DNA of 43,700 nt from an uncultured Chitinophagales bacterium (GTDB taxonomy: Bacteria > Bacteroidota > Bacteroidia > Chitinophagales > JAHDHT01), in the NCBI GenBank assembly GCA_938023075.1, contig CALHDG010000019.1, positions 1 through 43,700 on the forward strand, read 5' to 3'. The notes under the pieces were generated by a model. It had not been told where the DNA came from, did not search any database, and saw only the letters and a list, made by a program, of their open reading frames with translations. Positions 6,051-42,549 of the stretch are shown in pieces. Made by a program: the position numbers and the translations under genes. Every line of letters starts with the position of its first letter. Within the stretch, counting starts at the first letter, position 1.

Positions 6051-6551
6051 TTAGTGTTTATGGTTGTGATCGTGTTTATGATCATGTTTAAAATAAGCAT
6101 GTTCAAAATTTTGAACTGCTTTACGCATACTTGCTATATGATCTAACTCGGTGGTTTGCTTACTCTTCATCGCATATACCAAAATTTCATGCAAACTGCT
6201 TAATTGAGTTATATACTTTTGATAAGCAGCCATATCCGTTTTATCCGTAACTTTTACCCGTTGATGTAAAAAGTATTGACTAACGATTTGTTGAATTTCC
6301 TCAGCATGTTTTTCTTTGTTGTTCACCCACCTAACCAATTGATTGATGTGGGCTGTAGGATCTTTAGACAATTCATTCACCTGATTCATGGCTTTTTCAA
6401 TAGTTGTAATATGCTCTTTAATTAAGCTAATCCGTAACGAATCTTCATAAATACCACAAGGTACTTCGCAATGTGGGTTTGCTAAAACCGGATTCGTAAA
6501 TAAAAACAGGGTAACTAATATAGCAAGGCTTTTACTAATTAAAATTTTCAT
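6051..6551 (-). CDS. sodN: Exported nickel superoxide dismutase
   Basis: This 166-residue protein has the nickel-hook motif HCEVPCGIY at 27-35, the N-terminus of mature Ni-SOD, followed by the family's helical bundle (region 36-155). His1, Cys2, Cys6 and Tyr9 of the hook are all present, so superoxide dismutation is expected. In Streptomyces a dedicated protease (SodX) removes the leader to expose His1. Here the leader is a Sec signal peptide with a good cleavage site after VLA (residue 24), which would leave Asn-Pro before His27. The C-terminus carries a His/Asp tail, HDHKHDHNHKH, likely to bind metal. No SodX-like protease gene is adjacent. Symbol assigned by family; confidence in the family is high from the hook alone. 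Confidence 0.88.
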   Translation of the reverse strand: MKILISKSLAILVTLFLFTNPVLANPHCEVPCGIYEDSLRISLIKEHITTIEKAMNQVNELSKDPTAHINQLVRWVNNKEKHAEEIQQIVSQYFLHQRVKVTDKTDMAAYQKYITQLSSLHEILVYAMKSKQTTELDHIASMRKAVQNFEHAYFKHDHKHDHNHKH

Positions 6552-42135: not shown

Positions 42136-42549
42136 TTACTTTTTTATGATTTCTTCAAATTGTTTTAAAGTTACGATTTGGGTGTTTTTTACTTTTTTTA
42201 GGATTAATAAATCTTTATCTCCTGTAATGAGGAAATTTGCGTTTCCATCAATACTGAGATTGAGTAAGAAGTTATCTTTTGGATCTCTGCACAATTTTAA
42301 ATTTGTCTTTACTGATATTAATTTCCCTTTACTTCTGATAAAATCAATCAATAGTATAATTTTCTCACTTGTAAAATATTTACGAAACTTTTCTTTTAGT
42401 GCAGTATCTACAATCTCAGAAATTAACTTATTTGAAAAAAGAAGTTGGACTTCATCCTTAGAAATTAATTCCTTTAAAAATGATCCTGTGGAAGAAATCA
42501 AAAAACTGATCCATAAATTACTGTCTATGACTATTTTTTTGATTTTCAT
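42136..42549 (-). CDS. PIN-domain toxin (PIN_3/COG1569 type)
   Basis: A 137-residue PIN protein. KKIVIDSNLWISFLIS carries the first acidic residue, CRDPKDNFLLNLSIDG the central pair, and LITGDKDLLIL the last Asp. Such toxins are RNases held in check by a cognate antitoxin. Its start overlaps the antitoxin gene by 32 nt, and its stop codon is immediately followed, in frame, by the mtaB coding sequence. It may therefore have displaced the native mtaB leader. Confidence 0.85.
   Translation of the reverse strand: MKIKKIVIDSNLWISFLISSTGSFLKELISKDEVQLLFSNKLISEIVDTALKEKFRKYFTSEKIILLIDFIRSKGKLISVKTNLKLCRDPKDNFLLNLSIDGNANFLITGDKDLLILKKVKNTQIVTLKQFEEIIKK

Follow-up and report, generated by a model that had tools for sequence, protein, structure and literature searches.

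The window, a 43,700-nucleotide stretch of DNA from an uncultured Chitinophagales bacterium, carries on its reverse strand an open reading frame with an ATG start (positions 6051–6551, −) that encodes a 166-residue Ni-SOD. The protein matches the Pfam family Sod_Ni (PF09055) with 95.7 bits (E = 4.1e-27; curated cut-off 25), scores 34.7 bits against the sodN equivalog TIGR02753, under the cut-off of 90, and finds its best fold matches among solved Ni-SODs. It begins with a signal peptide (residues 1–24, MKILISKSLAILVTLFLFTNPVLA; 6480–6551, −), recognized by a hydrophobic core and a sole acceptable −3/−1 site, VLA|NP. Residues 22–26 read VLANP, such that Asn25 and Pro26 (6474–6479, −) stand between the signal-peptidase site and the nickel hook HCEVPCGIY (residues 27–35; 6447–6473, −), which follows the pattern H-C-x-x-P-C-G-x-Y and whose H1, C2, P5, C6 and G7 are invariant across 21 aligned exported Ni-SODs. 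The C-terminus is a His-rich tail, HDHKHDHNHKH (residues 156–166; 6054–6086, −). The reading frame, the Sod_Ni match and the residues themselves confirm what the original prediction had described at this locus, an exported Ni-SOD with Asn-Pro ahead of the hook and a His-rich tail, and both the residues before the hook and the tail exceed chance. The gene is the only Ni-SOD in its genome, and the family is rare: among drawn genomes, with the window's own included every time, matches over the family cut-off were found in 3 of 395 at the level of the phylum, 4 of 398 for the order and 3 of 395 for the class. Elsewhere in the window, a gene for a BatA-type aerotolerance protein (PF07584; 3242–5266, −) lies two genes from the Ni-SOD gene, and there are two PIN-domain genes (PF13470; 13148–13705, − and 42136–42549, −).

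Since a single-sequence search of solved structures with the window protein gave no match and an alignment-profile search recovered Ni-SOD weakly (E = 0.019), we examined the fold through an AlphaFold model of the form beginning at His27. The model (mean pLDDT 88.6) is a four-helix bundle, as judged against the reference Ni-SOD structures 1T6U and 1Q0D. Ni-SOD chains ranked first in Foldseek, but with a weak E-value (0.12), and also came first in VIA-align with Z = 12.8, other helical bundles reaching up to 12.3.

Signal sites were called with a simple −3/−1 rule rather than a trained predictor. By this rule no site but VLA|NPHC is acceptable around the end of the hydrophobic core; it lies two residues ahead of the hook, which supports the earlier proposal that signal peptidase leaves Asn-Pro in front of His27. 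Signal peptidase I is not known to accept Pro at −1, and Pro26 speaks against a normal cut right before His27. A sequencing error is an unlikely origin of Asn-Pro, as the insertion would comprise two whole codons within an open frame.

To place these two residues in context, we drew Ni-SODs from genome collections and inspected the residues preceding the hook in 65 exported proteins. In 54 of them the residue directly before His1 is Ala, Ser, Gly or Thr, so that His1 can be freed by a single signal-peptidase cut. In the other 11, the window protein included, this position is occupied by Pro, Val, Asp, Glu, Arg, Trp or Leu, none of which is known to be accepted at −1 by signal peptidase I. Counted from the likely signal site up to the hook, the extra residues of this pro-segment class number from 2, in the window protein, to about 28, with about 5 to 28 in the remaining members (L006, L008, L011, L026, L027 and L028; L086, L087, L090 and L091). 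The survey that the original prediction had proposed thus uncovered a segment in a minority of exported Ni-SODs, but the Asn-Pro type recurs nowhere: a dipeptide of the kind removed by DPP-IV (X-Pro or X-Ala) precedes His1 in the window protein alone among the 65. The class makes up 7 of 19 Bacteroidota sequences versus 4 of 46 others (Fisher p = 0.011; the sequences are not independent). In three members (L006, L008 and L028) the signal sites expose Gln 25–28 residues upstream of His1, and Gln exposed in this way turns into pyroglutamate in Bacteroidota (PMC5837995). The segments of these three would accordingly begin with pyroglutamate, a start that would block stepwise N-terminal trimming and require an endoprotease. 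We found no paper in the open-licence literature describing exported Ni-SODs in which residues separate the signal site from the hook.

Plasmids yielded one Ni-SOD, from Ilyobacter and of the directly cut type, and a search for phage or viral relatives found none. One protein (L107; G795:C111) has a direct site, LFG|HC, and is fused to a C-terminal region of about 250–290 residues that follows a KKHLHSHK stretch. Another locus (L114; G1485:C95) holds a Ni-SOD remnant with neither signal peptide nor hook beside the end of another reading frame, and is probably a broken gene.

In a tree of the mature domain, the rows nearest to the window protein are L028 and L026, which belong to the same order and carry segments of about 25–26 residues before His1; the window protein's own placement is not well supported. 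On this tree the pro-segment trait requires five changes, of which well-supported branches force at least two, indicating that the segment arose or was lost repeatedly, and a single common origin is not supported. An all-against-all blastp comparison of 27 loci revealed no protease gene common to the neighbourhoods of pro-segment Ni-SODs. In three genomes of the same order, P1B-type ATPase genes adjoin the pro-segment Ni-SOD genes (L096:3151–5178, L097:1232–3319 and L098:1440–3578), the L096 copy having a CPC motif and matching the copper-translocating family TIGR01511; no such gene was seen beside the Ni-SOD gene of the window.

We then considered which peptidases could be responsible for releasing the hook. 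SodX (TIGR02754) has no match in the window genome, in agreement with the proposal that this exported Ni-SOD follows a route other than SodX. In the 52 genomes whose Ni-SODs are all of the exported kind, no SodX match exceeds the cut-off or adjoins the gene. That the search works is evident from a cytosolic-type control of 13 planctomycete genomes, in 12 of which SodX lies downstream of sodN at a distance of up to about 500 bases; eight of these matches exceed the curated cut-off. At the thirteenth locus, sodN sits at a contig end. The 13 cytosolic-type proteins have an HCD hook and no signal peptide, and 12 of them have A-x-A before His1. Matches to SodX under the cut-off in the exported-only genomes were read as signal-peptidase-like proteins, being mostly to part of the profile, elsewhere in the genome, and also obtained in E. 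coli and B. subtilis controls. For the pro-segment minority, a two-step maturation without SodX appears to be the best reading.

The window genome encodes one DPP-IV homologue (L041:1082–3385; PF00930, 258.5 bits). It has a signal peptide with the site TA|QEDR, exposing Gln as is usual in Bacteroidota (PMC5837995). Its best solved relative is a DPP-IV (329.9 bits, E = 3.5e-97), and it contains the motifs DWVYEEEF, GWSGG, GTADDNVH and RAHG with an apparent catalytic triad. In DPP-IV the DWVYEEEF motif binds the substrate N-terminus. The specificity of the homologue is not certain, given that it reads GWSGGG where the solved DPP-IV has GWSYGG. All 12 Bacteroidota genomes searched encode DPP-IV homologues, also the eight among them whose Ni-SOD requires no trimming, so that presence of the enzyme says little. 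The DPP-IV route of the original prediction is tenable for this protein, with an exported homologue bearing the expected motifs in the same genome and Asn-Pro|His a suitable substrate, but is not supported as one of general use: in most exported Ni-SODs His1 directly follows Ala, Ser, Gly or Thr and a second protease is unnecessary, and the longer, different segments of ten others are beyond DPP-IV. It cannot remove those segments, which need another protease, and the protease required by the nearest long-segment relatives could serve the window protein too. Judged on motifs and N-terminal residues, the window protein is the only one for which DPP-IV makes a good candidate, with chances about equal to those of all other enzymes together.

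We propose that the window protein is an envelope Ni-SOD matured by two cuts. Signal peptidase I would cut after Ala24 to leave an Asn-Pro-His-Cys N-terminus, and a second envelope peptidase would strip Asn-Pro, freeing the amine of His27 to bind nickel. The likeliest second peptidase in this organism would be the exported DPP-IV homologue, because an X-Pro N-terminus resists ordinary aminopeptidases. We give this scheme as a whole slightly less than an even chance. That a free His1 amine matters is suggested by model peptides: when their N-terminus is blocked, they hold nickel via two amides (bis-amidate) and are inactive (PMC5722923). The window protein would be the shortest case of the minority class, the longer segments being served by some other protease. 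More tentatively, this minority class, with members in Bacteroidota and Planctomycetota, may consist of pro-enzymes whose activation in the envelope falls to a protease that is neither signal peptidase nor SodX, with the window protein as the shortest, DPP-IV-activated member.

A competing explanation, which we consider somewhat unlikely, is that a dedicated or general envelope endoprotease reads the hook side (HC[EQ][VI]PCG) and makes its cut directly before His1 throughout the class, in the window protein as well, with DPP-IV uninvolved. The variable residue before His1 next to an invariant hook would fit such an enzyme, as would the three members whose predicted pyroglutamate would block stepwise trimming. 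However, the neighbourhoods share no protease gene, and a class that is scattered over the tree and over two phyla does not suggest one dedicated enzyme. It is less probable still that the extra residues are retained, with nickel bound via two amides or not at all, in a protein that works poorly, works otherwise or stores nickel. This would agree with a class that lacks a known protease and has none linked to it by neighbourhood, but all 11 members retain His1, Pro5, Tyr9 and the two Cys, suggesting a working hook, and blocked model peptides are inactive, as noted above. A signal-peptidase cut between Pro26 and His27 after all is highly improbable. The 8 residues from the hydrophobic core to His27 do fall inside the range of 5–15 seen in directly cut relatives, but Pro stands at −1 and, two residues before, VLA|N offers an excellent site.

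The His-rich tail is genuine and recurs among exported Ni-SODs. At least two His occur among the last 12 residues in 46 of 61 exported proteins versus none of 13 cytosolic-type Ni-SODs, and six His occur there in the window protein and L007. The last 10 residues of the window model have pLDDT under 50, as for a disordered stretch. It is fair to infer that the tail probably binds metal in the envelope; nickel as that metal, and nickel loading by the tail, are putative. The link between export and the tail is strong, and it is relevant to the question of how enzymes outside the cytoplasm obtain nickel.

Hook release is a defining step of the Ni-SOD enzyme, and SodX is, to our knowledge, the only established dedicated processor. 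With the cytosolic system of Streptomyces, cyanobacteria and, here, Planctomycetota (SodN, TIGR02753, with SodX, TIGR02754), the window protein shares the Sod_Ni domain, the HCxxPCGxY hook, the four-helix bundle and the need for a free His1; it differs in being exported, in having no SodX, in reading HCE rather than HCD, in its His-rich tail and in scoring under the TIGR02753 cut-off. The literature already contains exported Ni-SODs whose His1 directly follows the signal peptide, for example that of Roseiconus lacunae (WP_230780104.1), used in PMC12537917. These share with the window protein a signal peptide, the same hook, mostly a His-rich tail and no SodX over the cut-off, but signal peptidase can free their His1 in one cut, whereas the window protein would retain Asn-Pro. 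Like the window protein, exported Ni-SODs with longer pro-segments have no signal-peptidase residue before His1 and keep the hook, yet their segments are not a DPP-IV-type dipeptide. Read from their N-termini, Ni-SODs split three ways, into a SodX type, a signal-peptidase type and a type whose hook is preceded by a segment and for which no processor is known. This last class, the window protein included, is the more interesting outcome: the longer extra pieces at the same spot in some relatives hint at a maturation step so far undescribed, and the class makes the question of hook release testable in a few proteins.
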